35,190 nt of DNA from a virus, in IMG/VR virus record IMGVR_UViG_3300037346_000526, positions 1-35,190 of that record. One strand, written 5' to 3'. Made by a program: the position numbers and the translations under genes. Shown here piece after piece: positions 13,697 to 35,190 of this stretch. Each line of letters opens with the position of its first letter. Position 1 is the first letter of the stretch. A model generated the notes under the pieces. It saw only the letters and a list, made by a program, of their open reading frames with translations, was not told the origin of the DNA and did no database searches.

Positions 13697-14761
13697 ATGA
13701 GGGTAGCAATATACACAATCGCACTCAATGAGGAACAATTTGTCGAGGCTTGGTATGAATCAGCCAAGGAGGCAGACTACCTTCTTATCGCGGACACTGG
13801 CTCAACTGACAACACCGTCAAGTGGGCAAAGAAGCGTGGAATCAACGTCATCACTGTGAACATCAAGCCGTGGCGATTTGACATGGCACGCAACGCATCG
13901 CTAGCTGCAATCCCGGCCGACATTGACTACTGCATCGCGTTAGACATGGACGAGGTAATCCTCCCAGGCTGGCGTAAAGGGCTCGAGGACGCCCATAGAG
14001 AGGTTTGGACACGACCTCGATACGAATACACCTGGTCATGGAAAGAGGATGGTACCCCAGGTCTAATTTATGGCGGGGACAAGATTCACAAACGTTTTGG
14101 TTACCGATGGAAGCACCCGGTTCATGAGGTGCTAACAACATACGGTGACAATGCTGAAACTCAGGGTTGGACTGACATCAAGATTCACCACCACCCGGAT
14201 AGCAGCAAGCCACGTTCACAGTACCTCCCACTGCTCAAGTTCGCGGTAGAGGAAGACCTTAGCGATGACCGCAACGCGTTCTATTACGCGCGTGAACTTT
14301 ACTTCTATAGCAAAAACGCTGAGGCTGCAATTGAGTTCAAGCGCCACCTTAGTCTTCCACGTGCTGTCTGGCCACCGGAGCGTGCGGCGTCAATGCGGTA
14401 CCTTGCGAAGATTGAGACTGATAAGACAGAGTACTGGTCACTGCGCGCAGTTGAGGAGTCGCCCGGACGTCGTGAGCCGTTTGTTGACCTTTCACTTTTC
14501 TATTACAGAAACAAGGACTGGGACAAGTGCTATGCCGCAGCTAGCTCAGCTCTTGCAATAAAGGAGAAGCCGCTAGAGTATCTCTGTGAGGAAGAGGCTT
14601 GGGGTCACACCCCACACGACATGCTGGCTATTTCAGCTTATCATCTAGGTTGCAACGCCGAGGCAGTAGAGCAAGGAAAAATTGCAATTAGCATAGCTCC
14701 TGTAGAAGAGAAACAGCGCTTAGAGACTAATCTTACTTTCTATAAGGCAGCTCTAAAGTGA
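13697..14761 (+). CDS. Family 2 glycosyltransferase with C-terminal helical (TPR-like) region
   Basis: This is a 354-aa cytoplasmic enzyme without membrane segments. The GT-A nucleotide-sugar fold is shown by the N-terminal strand MRVAIYTIALNEE, DTGSTDNT (33-40), the FDMARNASLA element typical of SPBc2-like and TPR-linked GT2 proteins, and the metal-binding ALDMDE (81-86). The C-terminal half (about 190-354) is helical with TPR-like periodicity. GGGAGAG before the ATG is a good ribosome site. Its stop overlaps the halogenase start by 4 nt (GTGA), so the two are co-translated. It may modify virion proteins, for instance Thr in the GPT repeats of the upstream fibres, or a host surface glycan. 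The donor and acceptor are unknown. Confidence 0.8.
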   Translation: MRVAIYTIALNEEQFVEAWYESAKEADYLLIADTGSTDNTVKWAKKRGINVITVNIKPWRFDMARNASLAAIPADIDYCIALDMDEVILPGWRKGLEDAHREVWTRPRYEYTWSWKEDGTPGLIYGGDKIHKRFGYRWKHPVHEVLTTYGDNAETQGWTDIKIHHHPDSSKPRSQYLPLLKFAVEEDLSDDRNAFYYARELYFYSKNAEAAIEFKRHLSLPRAVWPPERAASMRYLAKIETDKTEYWSLRAVEESPGRREPFVDLSLFYYRNKDWDKCYAAASSALAIKEKPLEYLCEEEAWGHTPHDMLAISAYHLGCNAEAVEQGKIAISIAPVEEKQRLETNLTFYKAALK

Positions 14762-16185
14762 ACATAGTTGTTTGCGGTGGTGGAACAGCTGGCTGGCTTG
14801 CTGCTTACATAATTTCAAAAGTGCAGCCTGGACTACACAAGATAACAGTTATCGAGTCTTCTGTAATCGGGATAATTGGGGCAGGCGAAGGTTCTACAGG
14901 AATACTTTACGACTTGCTTGCAGGAAGCTACTTCGATACTGGAATAGACTTGAATGACTTTACGATTAGAACTGACGCGACTAGAAAGATGGGAATCCGC
15001 CACGCTAATTGGACAGGAGATAGCACGAGCTACTTTGCGCCTCTTGATGGAAGCCCCACGTCTAAAAATTCTCCAGACTCTCTTTTCCATCACGTCATGG
15101 CAACGTACGGAAAAGAAAAGATGCATCTAGCATCTCCAATAGGACAGGCTTTTGATGAACATGCAATGCTAGAGTATGGTGGTGCCTTTCACTTTGATGG
15201 TCATAAAGTCGGTGTGTTTTTTAGAGAGCAGTGCGAGAAAGATGGAACTAGATGTATTGATGCCAAGATAGAGGAAGTTTTGCTAAACGAGCAAGGAGAA
15301 ATTGCATCAGTTCTTTTAGACTCAAAAGAGACAATTACTGGAGACTTTTTTATAGATTGCACCGGATTTGCCAAAGTTCTTATGAGCAAGTTAGACGTAG
15401 GTTGGAAGTCGTATGAAAAGTATCTTCCGGTAAATAGGGCAATGCCGTTCATTATGGACTACGATGAGAAAAGAGAGCTCGAGCCTGTCACCACCGCAAC
15501 AGCACTGAGCACCGGTTGGGTTTGGGACATACCACTGGCAACAAGAATTGGCGCAGGTTACGTGTACAATAGCAGTCTAATAAGCGACGATGATGCAAAG
15601 AAAGAAGTAGAGGGCTTTGTTGGTAGAGAGATAGAACCAATAAAGATTATCAACTTTACTTCTGGTAGAAGCGAAGAATTGTGGGTAAAGAACTGTCTTG
15701 CCCTTGGTCTTTCCGCTGCGTTTAGTGAGCCTCTTGAGGCAACGTCTATTCACTCTACAATAATGCAGTTACTTATATTTACTGGAGACTTTTTATCGCC
15801 ATCCTTTGAAAATACCAACACAGAAAACAATAGAGTACTTTATAATAGAAAGCTTACGGGTATGTACGATGATTTCTGTGACTTTCTAAATGTCCACTAC
15901 AAAGGCGGAAGAACAGACAGCGAGTTTTGGAAGTACATGGGCTCTGAAGAAAGCTCTACTGAATTTGTTATAGAGACGCTTGAAAAGTGTAAAACAAGAC
16001 CCCCAAGTCTTCTCCACTACTCTGACCTCATAGGCGCTTTTTCTCAAGGATGGTCTTGGGTTCTTGCAGGACTCAACATAATAGACAGAGACATGTCTAA
16101 GAAAGAACTAGAGATGTTTTCGCTAACCAATAAAGCGTCTAGTTATTATTCTGAGTTCAAGTCTCAGCTTACTCGGAGATATTGA
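14758..16185 (+). CDS. Flavin-dependent (tryptophan-type) halogenase
   Basis: This 475-aa protein matches FADH2-dependent halogenases (PrnA/RebH family). The FAD-binding GGGTAGW is at 7-13 and GAGEGSTG at 41-48, the latter matching GVGEATVP in PrnA. K77 (in TRKMGIRHANW) aligns with the catalytic lysine that forms the haloamine or guides HOX. The diagnostic W-x-W-x-I-P motif is W254-V-W256-D-I-P259, and EPLEATSIH (324-332) covers the second flavin/halide segment. All key residues appear intact. Halogenases in marine phages are known, e.g. the cyanophage enzyme VirX1, reported to iodinate diverse substrates. Substrate and halide here are unknown. No flavin reductase is visible in the window, so a host reductase would be needed. 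The GTG start overlaps the glycosyltransferase stop; the 3' end overlaps the convergent gene by 17 nt. Confidence 0.88.
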   Translation: MNIVVCGGGTAGWLAAYIISKVQPGLHKITVIESSVIGIIGAGEGSTGILYDLLAGSYFDTGIDLNDFTIRTDATRKMGIRHANWTGDSTSYFAPLDGSPTSKNSPDSLFHHVMATYGKEKMHLASPIGQAFDEHAMLEYGGAFHFDGHKVGVFFREQCEKDGTRCIDAKIEEVLLNEQGEIASVLLDSKETITGDFFIDCTGFAKVLMSKLDVGWKSYEKYLPVNRAMPFIMDYDEKRELEPVTTATALSTGWVWDIPLATRIGAGYVYNSSLISDDDAKKEVEGFVGREIEPIKIINFTSGRSEELWVKNCLALGLSAAFSEPLEATSIHSTIMQLLIFTGDFLSPSFENTNTENNRVLYNRKLTGMYDDFCDFLNVHYKGGRTDSEFWKYMGSEESSTEFVIETLEKCKTRPPSLLHYSDLIGAFSQGWSWVLAGLNIIDRDMSKKELEMFSLTNKASSYYSEFKSQLTRRY

Positions 16186-19175: not shown

Positions 19176-19441
19176 TATTGAAAAGGCGTTATCTCTAACG
19201 GGTCAACATTGTGCTGAATCTCGTCTTCAAACTTCTCAACATAGATGCCTACGACTGTCATGTTTCCGCACGTACAGCAGATATTTACCGAGCCAACCTC
19301 CGGGTTCATCGGTAAGGCTATACCTGTTAGTCGAGCGATAAGCTTACCGTCATCACTAACACTGTCAGGTTCCCACTTGCTGTTTTCCTCAATCCAGCAA
19401 ACCTCACATTGTGGATAGATACTTTTTATCTTCTCAACCAC
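19175..19441 (-). CDS. Hypothetical small cysteine-rich protein
   Basis: I do not recognise this 88-aa protein. It has CEVC near residues 12-15 and CCTC near residues 55-58, a possible treble-clef or zinc-ribbon site, with beta strands between (KLIARLTGIAL) and an acidic C terminus. The GTG start lies 8 nt inside the methyltransferase gene, so the two are co-translated. It could be a small zinc-binding partner, but nothing links it to a function. Confidence 0.5.
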   Translation of the reverse strand: MVEKIKSIYPQCEVCWIEENSKWEPDSVSDDGKLIARLTGIALPMNPEVGSVNICCTCGNMTVVGIYVEKFEDEIQHNVDPLEITPFQ

Positions 19442-20702
19442 TTGGCACCACCGTTTCTATTTTATCGGTGTACCATGTTCGTTTTGCGTAATGCCTGGAG
19501 AAGCTCTTATCAGTCTCTATAAGATACTCGCGGTCGCCGATTAGTTCTCCTTGCGGACCGTTGGGTTTCCCGTCCAGAGCGGCTCCTATGGCTTCTCCAA
19601 GCCATCTAGCAGCTTGTACTGGAACAGCCTTTCCCCAAACGGCGGGCAGGTTGGAATAATCGCGAGCGCCTTCAATGTTCCAGTCGTCTGGAAGCCCTTG
19701 GATTCTCGCTGCTTCCCGGTGCGTTATCAACCTCGGTTGCGTTGGGTGAATCACACCCTCAAGCGCGGAGCCTGTTAGTACATTGCACCAGTGGTCTTCC
19801 TTCCAGCGATATGGCTGAGAGAACCCTAGCTTGAAGTTGCGTCTTATATAGCGTGGTGCAACTGCTAGCCACTTCTGCGGAAACTTACCGTCGTTCATTT
19901 CAACTGCCTTTTTGACAGCCTGGTCCATTGGCCCGTTTCCTGGCCAGTTCTTATTTCCAATTATGGAAAAAAGTTCGTGGATTCGTTGAACGTGAATTGT
20001 CTCTCGTCCCATGTGACCGTCAACGGTGCCATCCTGTGAGCGCAGGTGCTTTACAAAGTCTGAGTGCTTACCATTGTATTTCTGGTATCCCCACGTCTCT
20101 GGCAGCTCAGCAAGGTCACCAATGATGTCCATAATTCTTGGCATCTTCTGGGGTGGAAGAACTTGCGCGCCAAATGGCATGCCTTCTTCTACAGCCACCC
20201 AGAAGTAACGTGGTCGATATGAAAAACCACCAAGCTGCAGGTTGTTTTGCCTAATGTGGTATAGGTCATATCTCTTACCGGATAGCTCCTCAACCATGTC
20301 GCGGTACTTGACCATTACCTCGCGACCACTTGTGTAAGCCTGTTGCACGCACTCGAACGCAATAACCTTGGGCTTTACCCTTGCGGCATAACGCATAAAC
20401 GCACGGGTGTGCTCGTGGGCTTTAGCGTCTGGGCCACGGTTTGCTGGGCCAGACCACACCGACCACCCCGAACATGGTGGGCATCCAGCAACGACATCAA
20501 CATCGTGGGTTGGCCACTCGTCTGAGTCGTCTGAAAAGAACGTTCCCCACTTGGTTCCAAGATGTTTACGGTTTACCTCAGCAAGAGCGTTTCCAAAGTT
20601 TAGCGTGCCAGTTCGAAGCTGCATCTCCATGCCAGACTGAACAAAGCCCAGACTCATAAAGCCTGCAAGCCCATTGCAATCTATAAATGTATGTCCTGAC
20701 AC
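19434..20702 (-). CDS. DNA (cytosine-5-)methyltransferase
   Basis: The 422-aa protein shows C5-methyltransferase motifs in the usual order. Motif I is FIDCNGLAGF (6-15), binding S-adenosylmethionine. Motif IV is GCPPCS with catalytic C77. Motif VI is F-E117-C-V in place of the common E-N-V, and motif VIII is YRPRYFW (162-168). Motifs IX-X lie in RLITHREAARIQGLPDDW. It transfers methyl to C5 of cytosine in a specific DNA sequence, as phages do to evade restriction; no cognate endonuclease is nearby, so it is an orphan. The GTG start has AAGGAG upstream. It sits in a genome region that also predicts hydroxymethylated cytosine, which needs explaining (see findings). Confidence 0.88.
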   Translation of the reverse strand: MSGHTFIDCNGLAGFMSLGFVQSGMEMQLRTGTLNFGNALAEVNRKHLGTKWGTFFSDDSDEWPTHDVDVVAGCPPCSGWSVWSGPANRGPDAKAHEHTRAFMRYAARVKPKVIAFECVQQAYTSGREVMVKYRDMVEELSGKRYDLYHIRQNNLQLGGFSYRPRYFWVAVEEGMPFGAQVLPPQKMPRIMDIIGDLAELPETWGYQKYNGKHSDFVKHLRSQDGTVDGHMGRETIHVQRIHELFSIIGNKNWPGNGPMDQAVKKAVEMNDGKFPQKWLAVAPRYIRRNFKLGFSQPYRWKEDHWCNVLTGSALEGVIHPTQPRLITHREAARIQGLPDDWNIEGARDYSNLPAVWGKAVPVQAARWLGEAIGAALDGKPNGPQGELIGDREYLIETDKSFSRHYAKRTWYTDKIETVVPSG

Positions 20703-20769: not shown

Positions 20770-21090
20770 CTAGTTTTTAGAACTATTTTCCGCTAAACTT
20801 AGGGCTTCTCCAACCTCGTATCCGCATCCGGCGTATCCTGCAACGTCAATCCAGGTGTCTGCCTGGAACCCAGACTTAGACGCGTATCGTGCAACCTTGA
20901 CGCCTACCATACACATGGCAACGTCTTCACTGGTTACGTCTATGCCTAAGATAACTGACCACACCTTTGCGATACGGTCAAAGTTCTCTTGAGGTCCGCC
21001 GTACTGAGCATCTCTGTCTCCAGAAATAAGAGACGCCGCCTTTCGAAGTGCCTCGACTCTTGGTGCCTGTGTTGTATTTTCTTCAGTCAT
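20770..21090 (-). CDS. DUF6378-like phage protein
   Basis: The 106-aa protein has the conserved core of a small family common in actinophages: ISGDRDAQYGGPQENF, then IAKVWSVILG, and DTWIDVAGYAGCG. The 'GDR..QYG.P..NF..IA..W' pattern and the later 'D...D.AGYA' acidic helix are also seen in MazG-like all-alpha NTP pyrophosphohydrolases, so a nucleotide-related fold is possible. The biochemical role has not been shown as far as I know. It shares one base with the next gene's stop. Confidence 0.65.
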   Translation of the reverse strand: MTEENTTQAPRVEALRKAASLISGDRDAQYGGPQENFDRIAKVWSVILGIDVTSEDVAMCMVGVKVARYASKSGFQADTWIDVAGYAGCGYEVGEALSLAENSSKN

Positions 21091-21714: not shown

Positions 21715-22182
21715 TCAGTCTTCTGGCTCACACTTGGCACAAACACCTGGGCGTCGTCCAGGGCCAACATCATCAATAGCACGGGTACAAAGAACACACT
21801 TGACACCAAGGTCTTTTACCTTGTAGCCCTTGATTTGCCGTTGACGGTTCTTTTCCATTTTTTCAGTGTAATACGTGTTTAGCTCTTCATCGGTGCCACC
21901 TGCAGCAACAATGATGTTTGCAACAAAGTGTAACACGTCAACAGCTTCCTTTATAACTTCCTCGCGGTCTGCGTATGGCTCGTCATGCTGCCAAGGCTTC
22001 CACGATATTGCCTGCCGCATTTCTGCAAGCTCATCGTCAATAGCTAACATGTTCCAGCGCATGTACTCAACGAGGTTGTTGATTTTTTCCGGGGCATCAC
22101 CTGTCATTGCACTGTAGTCAATTTTGTAGCCTTCAACCTGTAGCTCACGTGTTTGCTTCAGCCAGTCACCGAATAGCGTCAT
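21715..22182 (-). CDS. All-alpha NTP pyrophosphatase (dUTPase/dCTPase-like) with C-terminal zinc finger
   Basis: This is a 155-aa protein. The metal-binding signature of all-alpha NTP pyrophosphatases is present as E51-x2-E54 and E79-x2-D82 (KEAVDVLHFVANI), with a WKPW segment typical of dimeric dUTPases. The family hydrolyses dUTP, dCTP or other NTPs to the monophosphate. In T4 a member of this broad class (gp56) destroys dCTP so that hydroxymethylcytosine replaces cytosine. A C-terminal C129-x2-C132...C148-x2-C151 zinc finger is an uncommon addition. The 4-nt ATGA overlap with the glycosyltransferase-like gene upstream ties it to that pair. Whether the substrate is dUTP or dCTP cannot be read from the sequence. 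Confidence 0.7.
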   Translation of the reverse strand: MTLFGDWLKQTRELQVEGYKIDYSAMTGDAPEKINNLVEYMRWNMLAIDDELAEMRQAISWKPWQHDEPYADREEVIKEAVDVLHFVANIIVAAGGTDEELNTYYTEKMEKNRQRQIKGYKVKDLGVKCVLCTRAIDDVGPGRRPGVCAKCEPED

Positions 22183-24480: not shown

Positions 24481-25029
24481 TTAGAACGGTGCAGCAGGTG
24501 GTGCCGGAGCAACCGCGGCTTCCGTTGCAGCAGCAGGCGCTGGTGCTGGTGCAGGCGCGGGTGCGGCGGCGGGTGCTGGTGCAGGCGCGGGTGCAGCTGC
24601 AGCAGGGGCAGGAGATGTTGACGCAGTAGTGACATAGTACATCTTGATTTCATTCTTTTTCTGGCCCTGCCAGGTGCGACTTCCAATCTGGCCACGGAAT
24701 GAACGGCTCTGTAGAGCAGCCTCAATCTGTGCGTTGCTTGGGCTGGACGAGAAAAACTCGCGGTTCAGTCCAAGTGCGGCCATCTTACGGAAGAACATTC
24801 CCAATGCAGCTGGGCTGTCTGGCGTCACAACAAGGTTGTCCCAAACGAGACGGTTGTTGTGCGCACCACCCTGAACCTGTGCCTTGACTGCGAACATTGT
24901 TTTACCAGACTGCGCAACTTTTGCGGTTGCCTCTACTACCTTTAGCTCGTAGTCGCCATCTGGCAGTGGCTCATATGAACCAGTTTCTCCGGCGTCCTTT
25001 ACCAAGTCGCCCCAGTTGAGTGAACTCAT
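24481..25029 (-). CDS. SSB-like phage ssDNA-binding protein with Ala/Pro-rich tail
   Basis: This is a 182-aa protein. Residues 1-130 look like the OB-fold-type phage ssDNA-binding proteins found next to Sak4 and Cas4-like genes: LPDGDYELKVVEATAKV, SGKTMFAVKAQV, then a GTW-type strand (GSRTWQGQKKNEIKMYYV). From about residue 135 the chain is a low-complexity Ala/Pro linker of about 45 residues ending in A-A-P-F, which recalls the terminal Pro-Phe of bacterial SSB tips that bind partner proteins, though without the usual acidic residues. AAGGAGA lies upstream of the ATG. It probably coats ssDNA during replication and recombination. The Ala/Pro stretch is GC-rich and repetitive, prone to length variation. 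Confidence 0.7.
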   Translation of the reverse strand: MSSLNWGDLVKDAGETGSYEPLPDGDYELKVVEATAKVAQSGKTMFAVKAQVQGGAHNNRLVWDNLVVTPDSPAALGMFFRKMAALGLNREFFSSSPSNAQIEAALQSRSFRGQIGSRTWQGQKKNEIKMYYVTTASTSPAPAAAAPAPAPAPAAAPAPAPAPAPAAATEAAVAPAPPAAPF

Positions 25030-25069: not shown

Positions 25070-25843
25070 TTAGGACGCTGCTTTCTTACTTTTGGTGGCT
25101 TCAGCTTTTTCGCCAAATACCATATCTAACATTCTCTCAATACCGAGGTCCCGCTGCTCGACAACTTTGCCGAGACGCCCTTGAACTCGTTCTCCAGCTT
25201 CGTATTCGTCAGTGCGTTCAACATACATACGTCGTACCTTGAAAGGTGCTTGCAACGGGTCTGGATTTGGTTCGGTCTCAACGGTTATTGCTCCCAGGAC
25301 ATCGTAGAAATACGGTGCCTGGATTGCGAGCTGTCCCTGCAGGTAAGGACGCGCACGTCCATCCTGCCCAGGTCGTGCCATTGCTGTAAGTACTACAGCC
25401 TCAAGCGGTTGAGTTGGGTGCATTGTTAGGTCACGCAGGTCACGCAGTAGCGCACCCATGTGACGAAGCAACTCGCCCCATTGTTGCATCTTCATCTGTT
25501 CCGTGCCAGCGATGGAATCCATACACTTGACCTGGAGCTCTGAGATGGAATCGATAATCAAGGACTTGAACTGGTGTTGACCAGTTTGCAGCCATTGAAA
25601 CGTCTTTATTACGACGTCATATTGACGCACATTTACGACTACCGTGTCCCATGTTCCATCTGCGACAGGAGGCTCCTCCCGCAGAGGGTCCCAATACTTG
25701 ACAGTGATAGGCAGGAACCTGTGTCCACCTTCAACGTCGAGCATGAGACGAGGATACGGGGCAGTGACGGCAAAGGTAGATTTACCTACCTTTGATTCGC
25801 CATACACCATAATCGTAAGCGACCTCTGTACTTCATTTGACAT
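25070..25843 (-). CDS. RecA-like P-loop ATPase (Sak4-like recombinase)
   Basis: The 257-aa protein has Walker A G15-E-S-K-V-G-K21-S22 at its N terminus and a Walker B strand KSLIIDS at about 92-98. A helix (LLRHMGALLRDLRDL) and an AVVLTAMARP sensor-like strand follow. This is the AAA_24/Sak4 layout of phage ssDNA-annealing ATPases, which are shortened RecA/Rad51 folds that work with the phage SSB. Its placement between an SSB-like gene and a Cas4-like nuclease fits a recombination-dependent replication module. The C terminus is Lys/Ala-rich. It follows the nuclease gene after 3 nt. Confidence 0.78.
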   Translation of the reverse strand: MSNEVQRSLTIMVYGESKVGKSTFAVTAPYPRLMLDVEGGHRFLPITVKYWDPLREEPPVADGTWDTVVVNVRQYDVVIKTFQWLQTGQHQFKSLIIDSISELQVKCMDSIAGTEQMKMQQWGELLRHMGALLRDLRDLTMHPTQPLEAVVLTAMARPGQDGRARPYLQGQLAIQAPYFYDVLGAITVETEPNPDPLQAPFKVRRMYVERTDEYEAGERVQGRLGKVVEQRDLGIERMLDMVFGEKAEATKSKKAAS

Positions 25844-25846
25844 ACG

Positions 25847-26788
25847 TCACTCACTTCCCTTCTTCTCTTCTGTATTTCCGTAGTAACCATATGGGTCGGC
25901 TGACACATATGCATCTTCGATTGCCGATTCGACAGCGCTACCGTCGTCGAATAGTGGGCAAACGGAGAAGAATTGGCATTTCCATTTACAGTCCCGGCTA
26001 GGACGTGGATATACCGTAAGCTGATGATTGGCACCTTCATCAAGTGCCTCGCGCACCCTTAGAAGGTCGCCGATTGTTCCGTGGATACGCTGCCAGAAGT
26101 TGCGTAAGGCAAACACGTTGTGGCGAACTTCCATTTGCTCATAGAAAGGCGGGCGTGCATTTGCTGAACGCTTCACCTTCTTTAGCATTGTGAATATACC
26201 ACCCTCGGAACGTTCGCCTTCTTTGTTCTGCGCGGTTTCCAGCATCATGTATGTAAGAATCTGCTCGTTCATGTGAGCCAGTTGTGTAAAGTCAGTGAAA
26301 GAACCACCAACAGTCTTGAAGTCGCGGAACATACGCACGCCATCAGCCTTGCGACGAACACGCATATCAATCTTGCCTTGGAGCTCAACCTTGCCATCGA
26401 ACAACGGCATTGAGATAATTTCCTCGGTGCTAATCATCTCGAGCTCGGCGTCTATGCCGTTTTCCTCAACCCAGTCAAGGTAACCCTCAAGCATGATGCG
26501 GCCAAGTTCAGCCTCGCTGTCTAGGTCAGACGTATCACGCATTGAATCAATCAAAGCCTGACGGTCTTTTTCAACCCAAGAGCTGTGTGCCTCAAGAAGA
26601 GGTGTGCCTTTTGAGTAGTAGTCGTCAAGTGCCGCGTGAACGCGTGAACCAAGTGCCAGGGCACCTGTTTTGTTTTCAGTCCTTGGCCGAAGTCGACGGT
26701 AGTAGCTTAGCCACCACTTTCTTCTACAGTCCTTGAACGTCTGTATCTCTGAGTTAGAAATACGTAATGGTCCATCTAGTTTTGTCAT
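25847..26788 (-). CDS. Cas4/RecB-like PD-(D/E)XK nuclease with Fe-S cluster
   Basis: This is a 313-aa protein. Active-site residues are H51 (GSRVHAALDDYY), D141 (GKIDMRV) and the D156-F-K158 core (RDFKT), as in RecB-family nucleases. C21 (KDCRRKWW), together with C267, C271 and C277 near the C terminus (DCKWKCQFFSVC), forms the split four-cysteine set that holds a [4Fe-4S] cluster in Cas4 and AddB. Such enzymes resect DNA 5'-3' or 3'-5' for recombination. No CRISPR array or other cas gene is present, so this is a replication-module exonuclease. A 4-nt overlap joins it to the helicase gene. Confidence 0.82.
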   Translation of the reverse strand: MTKLDGPLRISNSEIQTFKDCRRKWWLSYYRRLRPRTENKTGALALGSRVHAALDDYYSKGTPLLEAHSSWVEKDRQALIDSMRDTSDLDSEAELGRIMLEGYLDWVEENGIDAELEMISTEEIISMPLFDGKVELQGKIDMRVRRKADGVRMFRDFKTVGGSFTDFTQLAHMNEQILTYMMLETAQNKEGERSEGGIFTMLKKVKRSANARPPFYEQMEVRHNVFALRNFWQRIHGTIGDLLRVREALDEGANHQLTVYPRPSRDCKWKCQFFSVCPLFDDGSAVESAIEDAYVSADPYGYYGNTEEKKGSE

Positions 26789-28590
26789 AATTTACCTGCC
26801 TTGTCGTCCTTTAGTAGTGAAAGCAACTGGTCCTTGTCTCTAACAATTTCCTCGAAGTTATCTGCCTTTGTTTCAAGTACCTGAAGTACTCGTTCCTCAA
26901 TCGTGCCTTCAGTGACGTAATCCGTCACAATGATTGAGTCGTGAATCTCTGACCCAATACGGTGAACACGGTCAAGTGCTTGTTTATGGTCCACGAGCGA
27001 CCAAGGTCGCTGTAGCATCACAAGTCGTCGCGCTGCTGTAAGTGTAATACCAACACCACCAGCTTGCGCAGTGAAAAGAATCCACTTAGTCTTGCCTGAT
27101 TGAAAATCGTCGACAGCCTGTTGGCGTTCGTCTTCGTCCTGGGCGCCTGTAATCAAACCATGAGCAATCTTAGCCTTAGTAAGCGCCTCAGAAAAAATCT
27201 CGATGAGCTGCCGCGAAACAGCACAAACTGCAACGCTGTCTTCACCGAAGTCTCCGTTTTTGATGTCGTCCATAAGCGCATCGACCTTACAGGACGGGGC
27301 AACTAGCTTTGCCTTTGTTTCACCTGTTTCTTCGTTGACACTCATCTCAGCGTATGAACTTGCAAACTGCAATAGGCGTGTTGTCTGCGTGAGTGGGCTT
27401 GGCGCTGTTATTGCCTCGCCGTTCTCAAGCTCAGCAATCATTAGTTCACGCATTTGCTTATAAGCCTTTGCCTGCTTTGTAGACATCTCAACGTCCCGGC
27501 GTTCAAACATCATGTCAGGCAGCCAAGGCAGAACTACCTTCTTCAACATGCGTCGCATACGAGGTTGAATGGTTGCATCAAACTCTGCCTGCATGTGCGG
27601 CTTGACACCAAGCACAACCATGCCGCCAAATGCGTTCATCATTGTGTTTACCATGCGGTCAATCCAGCGGGTCTTGCTTGGCCATTCCTCAGGGCTTAGC
27701 CAGTGAAGGATTGCCCAAAGGTCAAGAACGTTGTTTGCGATAGGCGTACCTGTTAGCGCCATACGAATATCAGCATTACCAGTGGCAGCCCATAGCGCGC
27801 GTGACTGTTTTGACTTAGGCTCCTTTGACCTGTGAATCTCATCTGCAACGACTGCCTTGAAGTCAATCGTGTTTAGCTCACGGATGTGGACCTCGCAGCG
27901 ATTCTCTGAAACCTTCTCGTCATGTCCACCGCATTGTGTGCATCGCGCAAGCGCTACAGAACCGTATGGTGCAAGCCTTGAGTGCGAGCGTAGAGATTCC
28001 CAGTTGATAATCAATACGCCTGACGGGTCCTCAAACAACTTACGCCTTTGAGCTGCCGAACCCTTGACCACGGTTGTTGGTACCTCCGGCCACCAGCGTG
28101 CAAACTCACGTGCCCAGTTCTTTTTCAACGTGTTCGGGCAAACGATAAGCGCAGGGAATACTTCCTCGCCACTTTCATGCAATTTTTTCAGCGCGCGGAT
28201 TGCCTGTGCTGTTTTACCTAGCCCCGGTTCGTCAGCAAGCAAGGCGCGTCGTGCAGTTGTAAGAAATTCTACGCCAGCTCTCTGGTGGGGAAATAGGTCC
28301 TCATTAGAGGGGTCCTCGAGGCTCTCTAGCGACCTAAGCGTATTTGCCGGGGTAATACGTGTGGCTAATTCATTGGCAGCCCAGTTGCCTAACTTAGGAC
28401 CGATAACAAGCGATTCCTTGAAGGTTGCGCGTAGCGCAAGACATGTTGCCCACGAGGTAGGCACGCGCCATTGTTGCGACTTAGAGTCCCACTTGGCACC
28501 AGGCAAGCTTTTGCAAAGCTCCTTGTAGCGCCATTCTGCATCAATAATGATTGATTTGCCCGAATCATCGAGCTCTACACCGGCATACAC
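26785..28590 (-). CDS. SNF2-family DNA helicase/translocase (HARP-like N terminus, zinc-knuckle insertion)
   Basis: This is a 601-aa protein with SF2/SNF2 motifs. Motif I is DEPGLGKT (120-127), motif II DEIH (250-253) and motif III LTGTP (279-283). Motifs V-VI follow near 515-550 (AGGVGITLTAA, then QALDRVHRIGS). Residues 1-55 (AEWRYKELCKSLPGAKW, then WRVP) look like a HARP-type domain as in SMARCAL1, which anneals or remodels forked DNA. Between motifs Ia and II is a C217-x2-C220...C232-x2-H235 insertion, a probable zinc knuckle. It likely unwinds or remodels replication forks and D-loops. GTG start with AGAGGA 9 nt upstream. It has its own promoter at 28606-28629. Confidence 0.85.
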   Translation of the reverse strand: MYAGVELDDSGKSIIIDAEWRYKELCKSLPGAKWDSKSQQWRVPTSWATCLALRATFKESLVIGPKLGNWAANELATRITPANTLRSLESLEDPSNEDLFPHQRAGVEFLTTARRALLADEPGLGKTAQAIRALKKLHESGEEVFPALIVCPNTLKKNWAREFARWWPEVPTTVVKGSAAQRRKLFEDPSGVLIINWESLRSHSRLAPYGSVALARCTQCGGHDEKVSENRCEVHIRELNTIDFKAVVADEIHRSKEPKSKQSRALWAATGNADIRMALTGTPIANNVLDLWAILHWLSPEEWPSKTRWIDRMVNTMMNAFGGMVVLGVKPHMQAEFDATIQPRMRRMLKKVVLPWLPDMMFERRDVEMSTKQAKAYKQMRELMIAELENGEAITAPSPLTQTTRLLQFASSYAEMSVNEETGETKAKLVAPSCKVDALMDDIKNGDFGEDSVAVCAVSRQLIEIFSEALTKAKIAHGLITGAQDEDERQQAVDDFQSGKTKWILFTAQAGGVGITLTAARRLVMLQRPWSLVDHKQALDRVHRIGSEIHDSIIVTDYVTEGTIEERVLQVLETKADNFEEIVRDKDQLLSLLKDDKAGKL

Positions 28591-28675: not shown

Positions 28676-29128
28676 TCATGTAAGTAGTCTTCTAGGGACC
28701 CAGCCGGACTTTACAAGACGCAGAAGCCCATGACGCACTGCATCTAAAGCATGGCCCTCACCTCCACGGTGCCAGTACTCAAGCTTCTTTAGCTTGTCAT
28801 TGGCAAACATGGCTTTTGCATCGGCAGGTGACTGGAAGTATATATCATCGGTGTTTCGTCCAGCGTCAAGCATGCACTGCTTGAGGATACCAATCTGCTC
28901 TAAGCTAAACGGAGCCTGTGAGTTTTTTACTGTCTGAGCGTTTATCGTAAATCTTTCGCAGACAATCTCAGCGTCCGGGTACTCCACTAGAACCTTGCGT
29001 ATCGGTGCAGCGTATTCATCTTGTTGGAACTCACCCGACCACAACATCTCAGGCTCTTCACCTTGCTCATACGAAAAGCACGCCATCCCCGTCGCCTTAC
29101 CAGGGTCTACCGAAAGAATTATTCTCAT
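28676..29128 (-). CDS. RuvC-like Holliday junction resolvase
   Basis: This is a 150-aa protein starting at ATG 29128, which overlaps the polymerase stop as TAATG; a longer frame with a start at 29146 would run 19 nt into the polymerase gene. The RNase H-fold nuclease core is visible: D8 in SVDPGKATG, E58 in IVCERFTI, and H126-x2-D129 in GHALDAVRHGL. These are the acidic catalytic positions of RuvC-type resolvases. It should cleave branched DNA made during replication and recombination, before packaging. Translation is coupled to the polymerase. Confidence 0.82.
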   Translation of the reverse strand: MRIILSVDPGKATGMACFSYEQGEEPEMLWSGEFQQDEYAAPIRKVLVEYPDAEIVCERFTINAQTVKNSQAPFSLEQIGILKQCMLDAGRNTDDIYFQSPADAKAMFANDKLKKLEYWHRGGEGHALDAVRHGLLRLVKSGWVPRRLLT

Positions 29129-30954
29129 TAGTACTTGTCTCCCCAAGTTTCCATAGGACCATCAATGCCAGACGTCAATGGAACTGCCCAACCTTCTGTC
29201 GTTGTCATACATTCCTTCACTATTCTTGAAATCTCCTGTGCGTCATTGCGTGGGGCATTTAGAACAATCTCATCGTGCACGGGAACAATAAGAAGGTCTG
29301 TTAGGTCAGCCTGGTCAAGCTTCACAAGATTAGACTTGAACACCTCGGCTGCTCCACCTTGAATAAGATAGTTGACCAATGTATACACCCTATCCTCGTC
29401 ACAAGGAATACGGCGTCCAGTCCACGTGTACACGTACCCTTGACCCTCTGCCCTTAGACGACGCATACCAGCGTCCTCAATCTGTTTTTGGAAGTATGCC
29501 ATTCCCGGGTAGTTCGTGTCAAAGGAATCAGACACTGACTGCATCTGTTTTTTTGCAACACCGGCAGTAAGCGCCTGTTTCGCGACGCCTGCACCGTATA
29601 GACGACCATAAACAACACCCTTGATAAGATTACGACGCTTATCTGACTTTTGCATAGTTGGGTCCTGGTAAACCTGACGACCAATCTCAGTGAAAGGGTC
29701 AGAGCCAATCTTGTCAGCATTATTGAACAGCTCAATTAGATTGGTGTCGCCGGACAGCGACGCAAACATGCGGAACTCAACCTGGTCAAGGTCGGACGTG
29801 ATAATCACGTGGTCCTTATCCTTAGGGATAAACGCACGACGTACCACATCATCACCCTTAGGCAGGGTTTGAAGGGCAGGAGCGGTAATGGACATACGAC
29901 TTGTGCGTGCACCCAATGTCTTTACCGACGGGTGAACTAGACCATCAACGTTATCCTCAATAAAGTTCTTGAAGTATGTATTGGCAAGCTTGTCTGCCTT
30001 ACGTTGTTTCAAAACCGTGGCGGCAAGGTTCTTTACCTCTTCGTTATTGCCGTCAATGGTAAGCATCTTGAGCTGGTCCTTGCTTGCGGACTTTTGTCCC
30101 GACGGGGTATACTCATATATCTCTGCGCCAAGTTTCTCAAGCAACCTTACAAGTTGAATGTTGCTTGTGATTGACACGCCATCATATTGAGTCTTTGCCC
30201 AGGCTTTTACTTGCTCCGTGTATGCAGTTAGCTCGTCAAACTTACGCTTTGAATACTCTAGGTCGATACGTGCACCGTTGAGTTCCATGCGTGTGACAAT
30301 TTTACGTGTTGCCATTTCAAGTTCGTATGGTCTATGGTACGCGCCTTCAGGACCGCACTGGTCATAGAACTTCTCCCAAAGACGCGTCGTTAGGACAGTA
30401 TCAAGTGCGCCATACGACCAATATGGTTCAAAGTTTATGGGAACAGTTCCCCATGTCCAGCCGTTCTTAGAAAACTCTTGGTCAAGTGTGTCCTGTAATG
30501 CAACTGACCTGCCATCGACATGTAGCGCTGCAAGACGTTTTAGTGCACCGGAACCGAGTGGGTCAATGATGTGCGCCATAATCATTGTGTCATGAGCTCG
30601 CTCCCAGGGAATGTTCCAGCGGGAATGAACGGCAAACCAGCGAGCCTCGAAGGCTATGTTGTGACAGATTATCTGTCCGTCAAACTTGTCCATAGCCTGG
30701 TAAAAAACACCAGACCATTCGTTCCATGGTATTGACCAGCCTTGCATGCCATCACCAACCTGCACGAGACGAAGCTGGCCGTGCCAGGGAGAAAACGCGT
30801 CGGTGCGCTTCCCCCCTGGCAACTCACCTGTTTCTGTGTCAATGGAGATAGCATTGAGCGGTCGTCGTTGCCCTAACCAAGATAGAAACTCTTCGGCCTT
30901 CTCAACGCTATCAACGAGGTGAAGCTGCACGTCCTGCATATTATTGGTTGTCAT
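29128..30954 (-). CDS. polA: DNA polymerase I (family A) with 3'-5' exonuclease
   Basis: At 608 aa it lacks the 5'-nuclease domain, as phage replicative family A enzymes do. Exonuclease motif I is D39-T-E41; motif A is D388-L-D-Q-V-E-F-R; motif B is R441-x3-K445-x3-Y449-G; motif C is H560-D-E562. Residue Y449 occupies the place of Phe762 of E. coli Pol I (Tyr526 of T7), the O-helix residue that affects ddNTP discrimination and that metagenomic studies have linked to phage lifestyle, Tyr being typical of lytic phages. It is the main replicative polymerase. It overlaps the deaminase gene by 14 nt at its start. Confidence 0.93.
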   Translation of the reverse strand: MTTNNMQDVQLHLVDSVEKAEEFLSWLGQRRPLNAISIDTETGELPGGKRTDAFSPWHGQLRLVQVGDGMQGWSIPWNEWSGVFYQAMDKFDGQIICHNIAFEARWFAVHSRWNIPWERAHDTMIMAHIIDPLGSGALKRLAALHVDGRSVALQDTLDQEFSKNGWTWGTVPINFEPYWSYGALDTVLTTRLWEKFYDQCGPEGAYHRPYELEMATRKIVTRMELNGARIDLEYSKRKFDELTAYTEQVKAWAKTQYDGVSITSNIQLVRLLEKLGAEIYEYTPSGQKSASKDQLKMLTIDGNNEEVKNLAATVLKQRKADKLANTYFKNFIEDNVDGLVHPSVKTLGARTSRMSITAPALQTLPKGDDVVRRAFIPKDKDHVIITSDLDQVEFRMFASLSGDTNLIELFNNADKIGSDPFTEIGRQVYQDPTMQKSDKRRNLIKGVVYGRLYGAGVAKQALTAGVAKKQMQSVSDSFDTNYPGMAYFQKQIEDAGMRRLRAEGQGYVYTWTGRRIPCDEDRVYTLVNYLIQGGAAEVFKSNLVKLDQADLTDLLIVPVHDEIVLNAPRNDAQEISRIVKECMTTTEGWAVPLTSGIDGPMETWGDKY

Positions 30955-31429
30955 GTGCTTCGCCTCCTACGGTAGTGACATCTACCATGCACCTGCGTAG
31001 ATATTCTATTACAAGCTCTGGCTTTCTGTGCACGTCTATTTCTCTTATTTTCATCACTACTTTATTTATCCCTGAGTTTGAGACTAGCTTTGCACACTGC
31101 ATGCAGCACGCACCAGTGACATAGATTGTCCCACCCTCGACCTGTGACCTGTCAACATACAGAAGCGCATTAGCTTCAGCATGAATCGAGGGACAGGAGT
31201 CGTATGTGTTATCTAAAGGTGTTTTTCCTTGCGCACGTTCACACCACTCAACACAGTCTGTCTGATGTGGCCAGTTAGCAGAAGGGCCGTTGTATCCTGT
31301 TGCGCAAATGCGTTGGTTCTTAGAGACAACAACAGCACCAACCTGAGCGCGCGTGCAGCGCGAGCGTTTAGCTATAATTTCTGCGATATCCATCCAGGTC
31401 GTATCCCATGACGGACGGGTGGTTTGCAT
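30941..31429 (-). CDS. dCMP deaminase (ComEB-like)
   Basis: This is a 162-aa protein of the zinc-dependent deaminase fold: H83-A-E85 (IHAEANAL) with the proton-shuttle glutamate, and C109-x2-C112 as the other zinc ligands. The usual Pro before the first cysteine is replaced by C108. An N-terminal GAVVVSKNQRICATGYNG and a T-D-C-x3-C segment match phage dCMP deaminases. The enzyme makes dUMP from dCMP, the route to dTMP, and would compete with the hydroxymethylase-like protein for dCMP. It sits two genes downstream of that protein in the same unit. Confidence 0.88.
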   Translation of the reverse strand: MQTTRPSWDTTWMDIAEIIAKRSRCTRAQVGAVVVSKNQRICATGYNGPSANWPHQTDCVEWCERAQGKTPLDNTYDSCPSIHAEANALLYVDRSQVEGGTIYVTGACCMQCAKLVSNSGINKVVMKIREIDVHRKPELVIEYLRRCMVDVTTVGGEAHDNQ

Positions 31430-31600: not shown

Positions 31601-32476
31601 TTACTTCTTTTCCACATCAGCCTTATCCTTTTTGTCAATGTTGTTCTTGACTGCCTTTTTCATGGAGTCTGCATACCACTTCTCGCTGTCAGTGAGACGG
31701 TCATACATGTTGTCGTTTACAACGGACTGCATTGGCAGGAACGCAGACGACTTTACCTCGTTCCAGGTCCTGCCAGTGAACACTGGAATCTCGACTTTTT
31801 TGTCCGTGTGCTTCAGCTTATCAGCGGACGTGTAGTGCTCTTCGTAGATGTGTAGTGAACCAACGTGATGAGCGTACTTGCCAGGCTCAATGCCAAGCAC
31901 GGAAGCCATTGCAATTTGTACTCTGGTGAACTGGAAGAAGTCGTAGGCAGCACCAAGCCAAACATCGTTTGAGCGCATGTACACGCTCATGTTCAGCTTA
32001 TTGTCGCGAATTCTAAACTGGTGTAACACGGTGCAAGGGTAGTCGCGCTTTTGCGGCTGCAGGTCATACTGCGGGTTCCAGATGGTTACAACTGCCTGCC
32101 GCGAATCTGGGTCTGACTTTAGCCTGTCAATAACGACGTCGTACTGCCCGTTTGTGCGTGGGCCATAGGCGCCATGAAACACGCCATTGTCCTCAGCGTA
32201 GTTTGCGAACTGCGGGCCTACCGCAATTACAAGGTCAGGGAAGCTTGTGCCAGAGACAAGCTGGCAAGCCTCAACGGCGCCAATTCCTGGTACCGTTCCA
32301 CGATTTACATTGAGAGGCAGCGTGTTATACACGTCGTCAATGCGAATAATCGCATCCTCAATCTCACGGGTCTTCATCCCACGTGGTGCAGTTTCCTTGC
32401 CGTGCTCGAGCACGTGCTTTACGAGGTCAACGTATCCGTTGACACCATCAGGTATGTTGATTATCGCAGTATCCAT
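31601..32476 (-). CDS. Thymidylate synthase-fold protein, predicted dCMP hydroxymethylase
   Basis: The 291-aa protein is homologous to thymidylate synthase: R126 in DSRQAVV, WNP (133-135), catalytic C148 in YPCTVLHQF, RSND (168-171), and the H-x-Y signature SLHIYEEH. Two residues set it apart. The His after the catalytic Cys in thymidylate synthase (E. coli PCH) is Thr149, as in T4 dCMP hydroxymethylase (CT). The Asn that reads uracil (E. coli N177) is D179 (GAAYDFFQF), and Asp there selects cytosine. The Cys-to-Asp spacing of 31 residues equals that in both relatives. I therefore predict 5-hydroxymethyl-dCMP synthesis from dCMP and methylene-tetrahydrofolate. A dCMP methylase is the main alternative; plain thymidylate synthase is less likely. 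It overlaps the kinase gene by 16 nt. Confidence 0.8.
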   Translation of the reverse strand: MDTAIINIPDGVNGYVDLVKHVLEHGKETAPRGMKTREIEDAIIRIDDVYNTLPLNVNRGTVPGIGAVEACQLVSGTSFPDLVIAVGPQFANYAEDNGVFHGAYGPRTNGQYDVVIDRLKSDPDSRQAVVTIWNPQYDLQPQKRDYPCTVLHQFRIRDNKLNMSVYMRSNDVWLGAAYDFFQFTRVQIAMASVLGIEPGKYAHHVGSLHIYEEHYTSADKLKHTDKKVEIPVFTGRTWNEVKSSAFLPMQSVVNDNMYDRLTDSEKWYADSMKKAVKNNIDKKDKADVEKK

Positions 32477-33477
32477 TGTTCTTCTTTCTTGTCAATTCCG
32501 TCAGCAACCCTTTTGATTGCCTGTCCGTACTCTTCCTTGGTTCTATTGAAGAACCTGCGCACGTATTGCGGGTGAGGCAAGACGGTGTAGTAGCGCTCAT
32601 CAACGGGAAGCTTAGATAGTGTCTTCTCGGCCAAACGACCTAAGACAGCGATACTTGGAAAGCCTAGTGTCTGCCACAGCGCGTTGAAGGAGTTTTTATT
32701 GTCTCCGTCATTTATGTTGATGATTCCGACGTCCTGCCAAAGTTCTTCTGGAAGAGAAGTAAGTAAATACTCCGCGCAGTTGCCATCAACTGGCATAAAA
32801 GGAAGCTTAGTCTCTTCGCCGTAACGTTTTACAATGTTTCGCTCATCGCCTACAAGTAAGACGCGTGGGTTAGGGCTTCCAATGTAGTAAGGAAACAGCT
32901 CAAGCTTACGGGCGTTATCCTCGACTGCAATTGCGTTGTCTATGATTATAGACGCTAAGGCATCTACTTCCTGTAGGCTTTCAGCCTTTGGGCTGTACAC
33001 TCCAGTAAGGACTGAGTACTTCGCGGCAACATGATATTGGTCTAGTATTTCGGCTAGGTCGTCGACCTTTACGAACTCATCTCCGCGTGCCTCTAGACGC
33101 GCTTGAATGACCTCTAGAGGTTGATAAAGCCAATGTTGGGCAACACCACGGGACTGTAAAAATAGCTCAACCCAGCGCCATCCAGCCTGGCCTAGCAGCC
33201 CGTATCCATCCTTGTTTGTTTCAGGGCGATACTTAGGTGCGTAGGTAACCTCGCCCCAGTGCCATCTGTCAGATAGGGCAATAAACCGAAACCAGTTTTG
33301 TTTCTCAATTGAGGTTACGTAATCCTTTAGTACCCAGCGGCGCGTTGGCTCCTCGGGCTTGCCCTTGTGAAACCGGGCAATTTGGTCAATGCCATAACGA
33401 GAAACAAGTTCCTCATTGATTGCCTCAATGAGTGTTGACTTGCCTGAGGCGTCTGTGCCTTCAATCACGATAAACAT
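32461..33477 (-). CDS. Nucleotide kinase (dTMP kinase-like) fused to UDG-like domain
   Basis: This is a 338-aa protein. The N-terminal 190 residues are a P-loop kinase: G7-T-D-A-S-G-K13-S-T, D70-R71 (LSDRWHW) and a lid-like RGDE (131-134), as in thymidylate and phage deoxynucleotide kinases. Residues about 200-320 look like the uracil-DNA glycosylase superfamily: PRVLLVGDERN, LPFMPVDGNCAEYLL, SIAVLGRLAE and HPQYVRRF (302-309), but without a clear catalytic Asp. The fusion is unusual. The kinase half would phosphorylate a (possibly modified) dNMP, matching the TS homologue it overlaps. The second half may only bind bases or DNA. It has its own extended -10 promoter. Confidence 0.7.
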   Translation of the reverse strand: MFIVIEGTDASGKSTLIEAINEELVSRYGIDQIARFHKGKPEEPTRRWVLKDYVTSIEKQNWFRFIALSDRWHWGEVTYAPKYRPETNKDGYGLLGQAGWRWVELFLQSRGVAQHWLYQPLEVIQARLEARGDEFVKVDDLAEILDQYHVAAKYSVLTGVYSPKAESLQEVDALASIIIDNAIAVEDNARKLELFPYYIGSPNPRVLLVGDERNIVKRYGEETKLPFMPVDGNCAEYLLTSLPEELWQDVGIININDGDNKNSFNALWQTLGFPSIAVLGRLAEKTLSKLPVDERYYTVLPHPQYVRRFFNRTKEEYGQAIKRVADGIDKKEEQWILR

Positions 33478-34062: not shown

Positions 34063-34404
34063 CTAGTAAAGTAGCGTTCCTGTCCAATCAATATCATTGT
34101 CAAACTTTCTATGGTAGTCATTTACCATCATTCCAATGAATGCAAATTGTATCTGTTGCGCCCTAGTAAACTCTGTCTGCTCGTCCATCCAGGTAGATAG
34201 CTGCGAGAAGAAAATCTTGAGCTGGTCAAAGTACGCCTCGATTACTTGAGGATACGCCGCGGTTACTTCCTTATGGTCTGGGTACCCTCGTGCAACCTCG
34301 TCTCCGTCTAGCCAGATTACACGAGCAATCATTGGAATCTTTTTGTCAGGGTGCTCGATTGGTTCAAGAGCAACCCATTCCACCTCGTAAGTCGTTTCTG
34401 CCAT
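34063..34404 (-). CDS. Hypothetical protein (113 aa)
   Basis: I do not recognise this protein. It begins with beta strands (TYEVEWVALEPI, MIARVIWLDGDEV) followed by helices with aromatic residues (QVIEAYFDQLKIFFSQLSTW) and a last helix pair (QQIQFAFIGMMV). It is acidic and soluble and starts 1 nt overlapping the fibre gene stop, so it is translated with it. It may be a fibre-assembly chaperone by position, but that is only context. Confidence 0.45.
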   Translation of the reverse strand: MAETTYEVEWVALEPIEHPDKKIPMIARVIWLDGDEVARGYPDHKEVTAAYPQVIEAYFDQLKIFFSQLSTWMDEQTEFTRAQQIQFAFIGMMVNDYHRKFDNDIDWTGTLLY

Positions 34405-35190
34405 TATAGCACCTTTCTTTCTAGTATCTCTACCCGCAGGGCGAGTTCTTGAACTGACTTGATTAGCGGAGAGATAAACTGATAGTAGTCAACCTTACGG
34501 ATAGGGGTCTTGTCATCACTATCATTACCAGTATATTTTTCTCCGTCACGATAGACAAGACCGTACTTTTGGACGCCTCGTGCGCTAAAAACCTCCTCAA
34601 CCTCCTGGGCAATAAGACCATATTGCACATTCGATTGACCATCGGTTTTCCAGGTAAACGATACCGGGCGCAGCTTGTTGATAAAGTCAAGACCCAGCGG
34701 GGTTGGGTTTACGGCTGTCTTTAGACGACCGTCTGAAGGAGGACCGGGCAAACCGCGAGGACCTGGAGGACCTGGAGGACCGGGCAAACCGCGAGGACCT
34801 GTTGGGCCAGAGCCAATAGCTTGTGTCGCAAGTGTACCGTCGCCGCGGGCAACAACCATGCGAGTACTTGAGCCTGCAAGGTCAGACACAGTAACAGTTG
34901 TTGTAAAACGCACAGAGCCGGCTAGAACGGTGTTTCCCGGAGTAATACCAATGCCGCGGTTACCGTCGATGAACATAGAGTCACGGCCGTTACCGGCATA
35001 GAAATACGGATAGCCTGTACCAGACGTACCGGATAACATGAGCCCGGAACCACCTACGCCTATAGGTCCAATCGTGCCAACCTGTCCACCGTTGAAGAAA
35101 CTTATCTGGTTACCGTTTGACAACTCAACACGAGTGTTGGTTGACGATGTTCGAACAGTTCTACCAGTAAGTGTACCAGCCGTGATGTTT
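34404..35190 (-). CDS. Collagen-like tail fibre with C-terminal S74 chaperone domain (5' end outside window)
   Basis: The frame stays open to the right edge with no stop, so the N terminus is missing; a TTG at 35123 is probably not the start. Visible parts are a beta region (GNGRDSMFIDGNRGIGI), a short collagen stretch of GPP/GPR/GLP triplets, and a C-terminal peptidase S74 intramolecular chaperone. The latter begins S-D-G-R-L-K and continues PLGLDFINKLRPVSFTWK, then YGLIAQEVEEVF, ending in a helical coil (QELALRVEILERKVL). S74 domains help fibres trimerise and cut themselves off at the Ser-Asp site, with the Ser-Lys pair as catalyst. It lies on the strand opposite to the other fibres, next to the replication genes. 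Confidence 0.82.
   Translation of the reverse strand, partial: NITAGTLTGRTVRTSSTNTRVELSNGNQISFFNGGQVGTIGPIGVGGSGLMLSGTSGTGYPYFYAGNGRDSMFIDGNRGIGITPGNTVLAGSVRFTTTVTVSDLAGSSTRMVVARGDGTLATQAIGSGPTGPRGLPGPPGPPGPRGLPGPPSDGRLKTAVNPTPLGLDFINKLRPVSFTWKTDGQSNVQYGLIAQEVEEVFSARGVQKYGLVYRDGEKYTGNDSDDKTPIRKVDYYQFISPLIKSVQELALRVEILERKVL

Follow-up and report, generated by a model that had tools for sequence, protein, structure and literature searches.

A predicted dCMP hydroxymethylase and two predicted GT-B glycosyltransferases suggest a T4-like route to modified cytosine in a probable freshwater actinophage

The stretch of DNA analyzed here, a 35-kb fragment (IMG/VR record IMGVR_UViG_3300037346_000526, positions 1 to 35,190; hereafter the window, meaning the whole fragment), encodes a protein of the thymidylate synthase (TS) superfamily, and the question it raises is whether this protein supplies thymidylate or a modified cytosine nucleotide. 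We consider it likely that the phage follows a T4-like route, in which it would make 5-hydroxymethyl-dCMP, incorporate hydroxymethylcytosine (hmC), and then have the hmC glycosylated in DNA by two GT-B enzymes. This reading is built on homology, active-site residues, predicted folds, and synteny; from these we infer the chemistry, the replacement of cytosine, and the identity of the sugar. Since the window holds a likely cytosine-hydroxymethylating enzyme and two likely sugar-adding enzymes, the phage probably hides its DNA from bacterial defences in much the same manner as coliphage T4.

The ORF in question (Table 1) matches PF00303 (E=3e-29, above the curated cut-off) and the PHROG thymidylate synthase family (E=1e-46), and its best PDB match is the CMP hydroxymethylase MilA (E=2e-24). 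An earlier note on this DNA had placed C148, T149, and D179 in the ORF and read them as dCMP hydroxymethylase residues. Counted directly in the translation, the residues and the coordinates are right. The Cys-to-Asp spacing of 31 is the same in E. coli ThyA (C146-N177) and T4 gp42 (C148-D179), and, as the note had it, the spacing is gapless, with zero gaps in the aligned Cys-Asp columns against either protein.

Table 1. Coordinates of the predicted hydroxymethylase gene and its neighbours in the window
Feature	Coordinates	Strand	Basis
Deoxynucleoside monophosphate kinase candidate	32461..33477	-	phrog_761 'thymidylate kinase', P-loop GTDASGKS
dCMP hydroxymethylase candidate, TS superfamily, 291 aa	31601..32476	-	PF00303, PHROG, PDB match, aligned residues; start at 32476, stop at 31601
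dCMP deaminase	30941..31429	-	PF00383, HAE motif present
Family A DNA polymerase (PolA)	29128..30954	-	PHROG and Pfam matches
Small protein, phrog_1981 (a family of unknown function)	28676..29146	-	Position of DSL-LC01 RuvC-like resolvase
SNF2-type helicase	26785..28590	-	PHROG and Pfam matches
PD-(D/E)XK nuclease	25847..26788	-	PHROG and Pfam matches
RecA/Sak4-like recombinase	25070..25843	-	Pfam and PHROG matches
DUF669 / single-strand DNA-binding-like protein	24481..25029	-	Pfam and PHROG matches
Putative GT-B DNA glycosyltransferase 1 (P0002, GT-P2), 403 aa	23198..24409	-	Fold match, conserved motifs
Putative GT-B DNA glycosyltransferase 2 (P0003, GT-P3), 340 aa	22179..23201	-	Fold match, paralogue of P0002
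All-alpha dUTPase/dCTPase-family protein	21715..22182	-	PF08761 (dUTPase_2), E=2e-11
C5-cytosine DNA methyltransferase	19434..20702	-	PF00145, catalytic Cys77 in PPC

The window protein was aligned with T4 gp42, E. coli ThyA, SPO1 gp29, MilA, phage relatives, RB69 ORF048c, and Rgz1 gp33, which gave its active-site residues as E69, Y104, R126, D145, C148, T149, S169, N170, D171, D179, H209, and Y211. C148, T149, and D179 are as in T4 gp42, and E69, Y104, D171, H209, and Y211 are kept; both the folate-activating residue (E69, in the role of Glu60) and the pterin-contacting one (D171, which touches the folate pterin in T4 gp42, PMC6400193) are thus present. D145 is found in T4 gp42, MilA, and SPO1 gp29 and is Leu in thymidylate synthases. 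The T4 gp42 mutants D145N, D179N, and C148S lose most or all activity (PMC6400193), and the MetaGPA study singled out TS positions 147 and 177 as the two with the strongest association with modified-cytosine contigs (PMC8670742). These MetaGPA contigs resemble the window in having a TS changed at 147/177 that co-occurs with dCMP deaminase and pyrophosphohydrolase domains, but the decoration demonstrated there was carbamoylation, and no carbamoyltransferase was seen in the window.

The window protein belongs to a family in which this pattern is fixed. We found 80 homologous IMG/VR loci with 65-82% identity to it, and C148, T149, D179, and 11 other active-site columns (14 in total) are invariant in 80/80 of them; D179 as drift in one sequence is thereby ruled out. 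The pattern is also present in DSL-LC01 and in four genera of Gordonia phages. A 5-hydroxymethyl-dUMP enzyme was likewise rejected, because SPO1 gp29, a dUMP hydroxymethylase, keeps Asn at the Asp179 position. As for an ordinary thymidylate synthase supplying dTMP together with the adjacent kinase and dCMP deaminase, this is the name given in the DSL-LC01 and Gordonia phage annotations, and a second thymidylate synthase is missing from most of these genomes: DSL-LC01 and each of the nine long relatives carry a single PF00303 gene, always D-type, and a search of these same genomes for ThyX found none. We nevertheless regard this explanation as hardly credible, since the TS residues H147, N177, L143, and W83 are kept by no relative (T149, D179, D145, and Y93 in the window) and the window protein falls far short of the NCBIfam TS equivalog cut-offs.

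Another possibility is that the enzyme methylates dCMP to 5-methyl-dCMP, like the dCMP methylase of phage XP12, an alternative that the earlier note had left standing. D179 alone would fit this, as PMC8670742 cites Asp at TS position 177 as leading to dCMP methylation. However, the TS residues that govern solvent access, Trp83 and Leu143 (PMC6400193), correspond to Tyr93 and Asp145 in the window protein, so that the active-site Trp and the solvent-shielding pair are absent; D145 is moreover the residue seen in T4 gp42, MilA, and the SPO1 dUMP hydroxymethylase, and glycosyltransferases such as those downstream require a hydroxyl acceptor. We therefore think a methylase very unlikely.

MilA, the Streptomyces CMP hydroxymethylase, has equivalents of D145, C148-T149, N170, D171, and D179, and like the window protein (Gly102) it carries Gly for T4 Ser94, a departure from T4 gp42 that counts against the T4-like reading. 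It differs in serving antibiotic synthesis and in the residues for ribo selectivity, Ala176 and Lys133, where the window protein has the deoxy-specific S169 and R126. Changing the MilA Ala and Lys to Ser and Arg switches its substrate to dCMP (PMC5175136), and S169 and R126 therefore predict a preference for dCMP over CMP in the window protein.

Another rival is a 5-hydroxy-dCMP synthase of the RB69/Mosigvirus type, with sugars attached directly to 5-hydroxycytosine. According to one report, Mosigvirus phages such as RB69 use a TS-superfamily enzyme to make 5-hydroxy-dCMP, and from it glycosylated 5-hydroxycytosine (PMC13390438). This analysis assigns that activity to RB69 ORF048c because it is the sole TS-family gene of RB69 besides td. 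The RB69 gp42-like protein has C148-T149-D179 as well, so that the C-T...D signature is insufficient alone for a hydroxymethylase: the residues noted earlier are there, but they are not specific. The arabinosylation-type cluster of Morganella phage Rgz1 also includes a P0002 homologue adjoining an arabinose-5-phosphate isomerase, with a TS-like neighbour (gp33) of the RB69 type. In contrast, RB69 ORF048c and Rgz1 gp33 have E145, Q170, N171, and F218 where the window protein has D145, N170, D171 (the pterin contact of T4 gp42), and Y211, like T4 gp42 and MilA, and neither an arabinose-5-phosphate isomerase nor an NTP-transferase is present in the window. A 5-hydroxy product is accordingly unlikely here. 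At the subtype-distinguishing positions taken together (D145, N170, D171, Y211, S169, and R126, without the Trp), the sequence matches the dCMP hydroxymethylase pattern, as against that of TS, CMP hydroxymethylase, or the RB69 type; with the gene neighbourhood, these residues support the original reading of a dCMP hydroxymethylase in a modified-cytosine phage. For annotation, C-T...D is the mark of an enzyme acting on cytosine, and whether its product is hydroxymethylated or hydroxylated appears to be reflected in residues 145/170/171/218.

The gene neighbourhood recurs among the relatives in the order kinase, hydroxymethylase, dCMP deaminase, PolA, SNF2 helicase, RecA, GT-P2, [UGM], GT-P3, dUTPase_2, DUF6378, and C5-methyltransferase, where UGM is an optional UDP-galactopyranose mutase. 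The kinase candidate shares 16 nt with the start of the hydroxymethylase gene and is syntenic in 79/80 relatives. PF08761 is the Pfam family that also takes in the T4 gp56 dCTPase, and overlaps of 4 nt join P0002 to P0003 and P0003 to the gp56-family gene. Where GT-P2 loci extend 9 kb or more upstream, the hydroxymethylase is present in 17/17 and 9/10 of them. Conversely, GT-P2 is present in at least 35 of the 50 hydroxymethylase loci with 7.9 kb downstream, a lower bound because 14 of the 15 remaining loci stop at RecA, short of where GT-P2 usually lies; the other (L073) has a GT-P3 match.

Some smaller features of the block were also observed. Over its C-terminal ~150 aa, the kinase candidate resembles the uracil-DNA glycosylase superfamily very weakly (E=0.18, under the cut-off), and the motif 'TVLPHPQYVRRF' lies in its C-terminal half, making a kinase-UDG-like fusion possible. 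An additional CxxC...CxxC at the C-terminus gives the gp56-family protein a zinc-ribbon-like tail. A DUF6378 protein of ~100 aa (20770-21090, minus strand) is conserved in the block, and the PHROGs name 'phosphofructokinase' for it is doubtful.

On the T4-like reading, Cys148 would attack C6 of dCMP as in T4 gp42, Asp179 would recognise and protonate the cytosine ring, and Glu69 would activate methylene-tetrahydrofolate; water, not hydride, would then quench the exocyclic methylene to give 5-hydroxymethyl-dCMP. The adjacent kinase would phosphorylate this product toward the triphosphate, dCTP/dUTP would be depleted by the gp56-family protein, and hmC would enter DNA through the phage PolA. There P0002 and P0003, translationally coupled to the gp56-family gene, would glycosylate it, with a sugar that in some relatives would probably be a furanose supplied via UGM. 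Because two T4-BGT-like glycosyltransferases lie downstream of the hydroxymethylase, hmC is probably an intermediate.

The case for P0002 and P0003 as glycosyltransferases comes from predicted structure. Pfam and NCBIfam searches returned no match for either, PDB sequence searches with single sequences and with profiles returned no credible match, and only P0002 matched a PHROG, a family of unknown function. The two families are paralogous (hhalign probability 100, E=1e-39). AlphaFold2 models (pLDDT 92.5 for P0003 and 80.6 for P0002) match GT-B glycosyltransferases, with Foldseek E-values of 1e-4 for P0003 and 3e-6 for P0002, and both proteins are predicted to be GT-B enzymes. In VIA comparisons, T4 BGT ranks first for the P0003 model (Z=19.1, rmsd 3.5 over 297 residues; SenB 17.0) and for that of P0002 (Z=17.4, rmsd 4.0 over 303 residues), where SenB is tied at Z 16.7 and the BGT lead lies within 1 Z unit. 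P0003 D96 aligns with the catalytic D100 of T4 BGT and is invariant in 44 sequences; P0002 has a conserved D91-D92 and GxGWWRxR, with D91/D92 corresponding to BGT D100 by position rather than by alignment. At the sequence level, the P0002 family reached an hhalign probability of 2% against single-sequence T4 BGT and had no match to RB69 ORF003c, an arabinosyltransferase candidate.

Relatives of P0002 and P0003 occur in Gordonia phages and DSL-LC01, and those of P0002 additionally in T4-like Aeromonas, Erwinia, Providencia, and Morganella phages. IMG/VR searches with the Forza glycosyltransferase and with single-sequence P0003 returned no relatives, but an alignment query did. UGM adjoins GT-P2 in DSL-LC01, several IMG/VR contigs, FBB1, and phiAS4, and in some relatives it sits between GT-P2 and GT-P3; the T4-like phages phiAS4 and FBB1 combine a T4-type gp42, UGM, and a P0002 homologue. 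Because UGM adjoins GT-P2, the gene order hints at a furanose donor in the UGM-bearing lineages. P0002 relatives also occur in two phages without a D-type TS. The cyanophage-like C48C1 (Kyanoviridae) has zero PF00303 genes. In Vibrio 6E35.1a, a short partial P0002 match lies beside queC, and the only PF00303 gene is TS-type. The P0002 family is thus not strictly tied to the hydroxymethylase.

GT-B folds are common to many enzymes, and the pair could instead glycosylate other targets, such as host cell-wall or surface polymers, leaving unglycosylated hmC in the DNA. The DSL-LC01 authors took its UGM as a cell-wall function (PMC10611076), and the P0002-like genes of phages without a D-type TS would agree with such a role. 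Nevertheless, both genes lie within the replication/nucleotide block, where 4-nt overlaps tie them together and to the gp56-family gene, T4 BGT heads the VIA matches for both, and P0002-family genes are again accompanied by UGM in T4-like phages having a T4-type gp42. We give this alternative a small but not negligible chance, and glycosylation of the DNA itself remains the preferred reading.

The C5-methyltransferase accompanies the block in almost all relatives, with Cys77 (motif IV) and Glu117 invariant and motif VI being ECV or ESV, not ENV. A conserved enzyme of this kind, its catalytic Cys intact, is difficult to account for if all cytosines already carry a C5 modification; replacement of cytosine may be partial, or the enzyme may have another substrate.

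The host of the virus is probably to be found among freshwater actinobacteria. The nearest named phage is DSL-LC01 (66%), whose own host is a prediction (PMC10611076), followed by the Gordonia phages Sixama, GMA2, Forza, and Phendrix, in which the same gene set is mostly labelled 'thymidylate synthase' or 'hypothetical protein'. In the tree, the window protein clusters with DSL-LC01 and five long IMG/VR contigs (support 98/97), the Gordonia phages join next (99/98), and T4 gp42 stands apart; the deeper forks are weakly supported, with long branches meeting there. WhiB genes, reported to be exclusive to Actinobacteria (PMC8612146), are present in 2-3 copies in five long relatives and in DSL-LC01 and are found in 4/4 Gordonia phages, which supports an actinobacterial host for this clade. 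Four more distant long contigs keep the kinase-hydroxymethylase-deaminase-PolA block without WhiB. A search of cellular genomes (genome_contigs) for a hydroxymethylase homologue found none.

Set against the T4 hmC pathway (gp1, gp42, gp56, dCMP deaminase, and alpha/beta-glucosyltransferases), the window shares the catalytic residues, the gp56 Pfam family, the dCMP deaminase, a dNMP kinase candidate, and two GT-B proteins whose best fold match is T4 BGT. It differs in the low sequence identity of its protein to T4 gp42, which lies on a separate tree branch, and in glycosyltransferases with no clear sequence relation to T4 BGT in the comparison made (hhalign probability 2% for the P0002 family). 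Unlike T4, phages of the window type nearly always have the C5-methyltransferase, optionally have UGM, probably have actinobacterial hosts, and lack a thymidylate synthase of their own. The Gordonia phages and DSL-LC01 are closer, with the kinase, D-type TS, deaminase, and polymerase genes, GT-P2/GT-P3 homologues, a gp56-family protein, and a methyltransferase. DSL-LC01 differs in having UGM, and the Gordonia phages in their tRNA arrays and in a third gene, glycosyltransferase-annotated or unnamed, between or beside the two glycosyltransferases.

The earlier note had expected such a pathway to be unusual in an actinophage, but the D-type TS recurs in cultivated Gordonia phages and in 80 or more environmental contigs. 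In the open-access journal papers searched, we found no report of hydroxymethylcytosine or a dCMP hydroxymethylase in actinophages or Gordonia phages, and we therefore take the predicted T4-type pathway in actinophages to be new. The GMA2 paper raises methylases and glycosyltransferases as possible DNA protection and does not mention a hydroxymethylase (PMC4524720). If the reading is true, a large freshwater actinophage group and several cultivated Gordonia phages would protect their DNA by a T4-like route hidden under the annotations 'thymidylate synthase' and 'hypothetical protein', with a new pair of DNA-modifying glycosyltransferase families. Such viruses would be predicted to resist many restriction enzymes and some CRISPR systems, and their nanopore and enzymatic sequencing would be biased. 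The cultivated Gordonia phages with the same gene set make the reading immediately testable. More speculatively, and with rather more doubt than confidence on our part, the freshwater actinophages and Gordonia phages might carry an undescribed hypermodified base, namely hmC to which a new paired BGT-like transferase family would attach one or two sugars, the sugar being a furanose (galactofuranose/arabinofuranose) in UGM lineages and a dedicated C5-methyltransferase acting in the same pathway.

Elsewhere in the window, a family 2 glycosyltransferase precedes a tryptophan halogenase (PF04820, E=3e-85) at 13697-16185 on the plus strand; this pair adjoins collagen-repeat proteins on the opposite strand, and the same set is present in DSL-LC01. 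A 1935-aa protein (4863-10670, plus strand) beside collagen-repeat genes is probably tail or fibre related, and the counterpart region of DSL-LC01 is labelled 'ALK tyrosine kinase receptor', an unlikely name. At the fragment end, the product of 34404-35123 (minus strand) has a Peptidase_S74 (endosialidase chaperone) domain and is probably a tail-fibre C-terminus.
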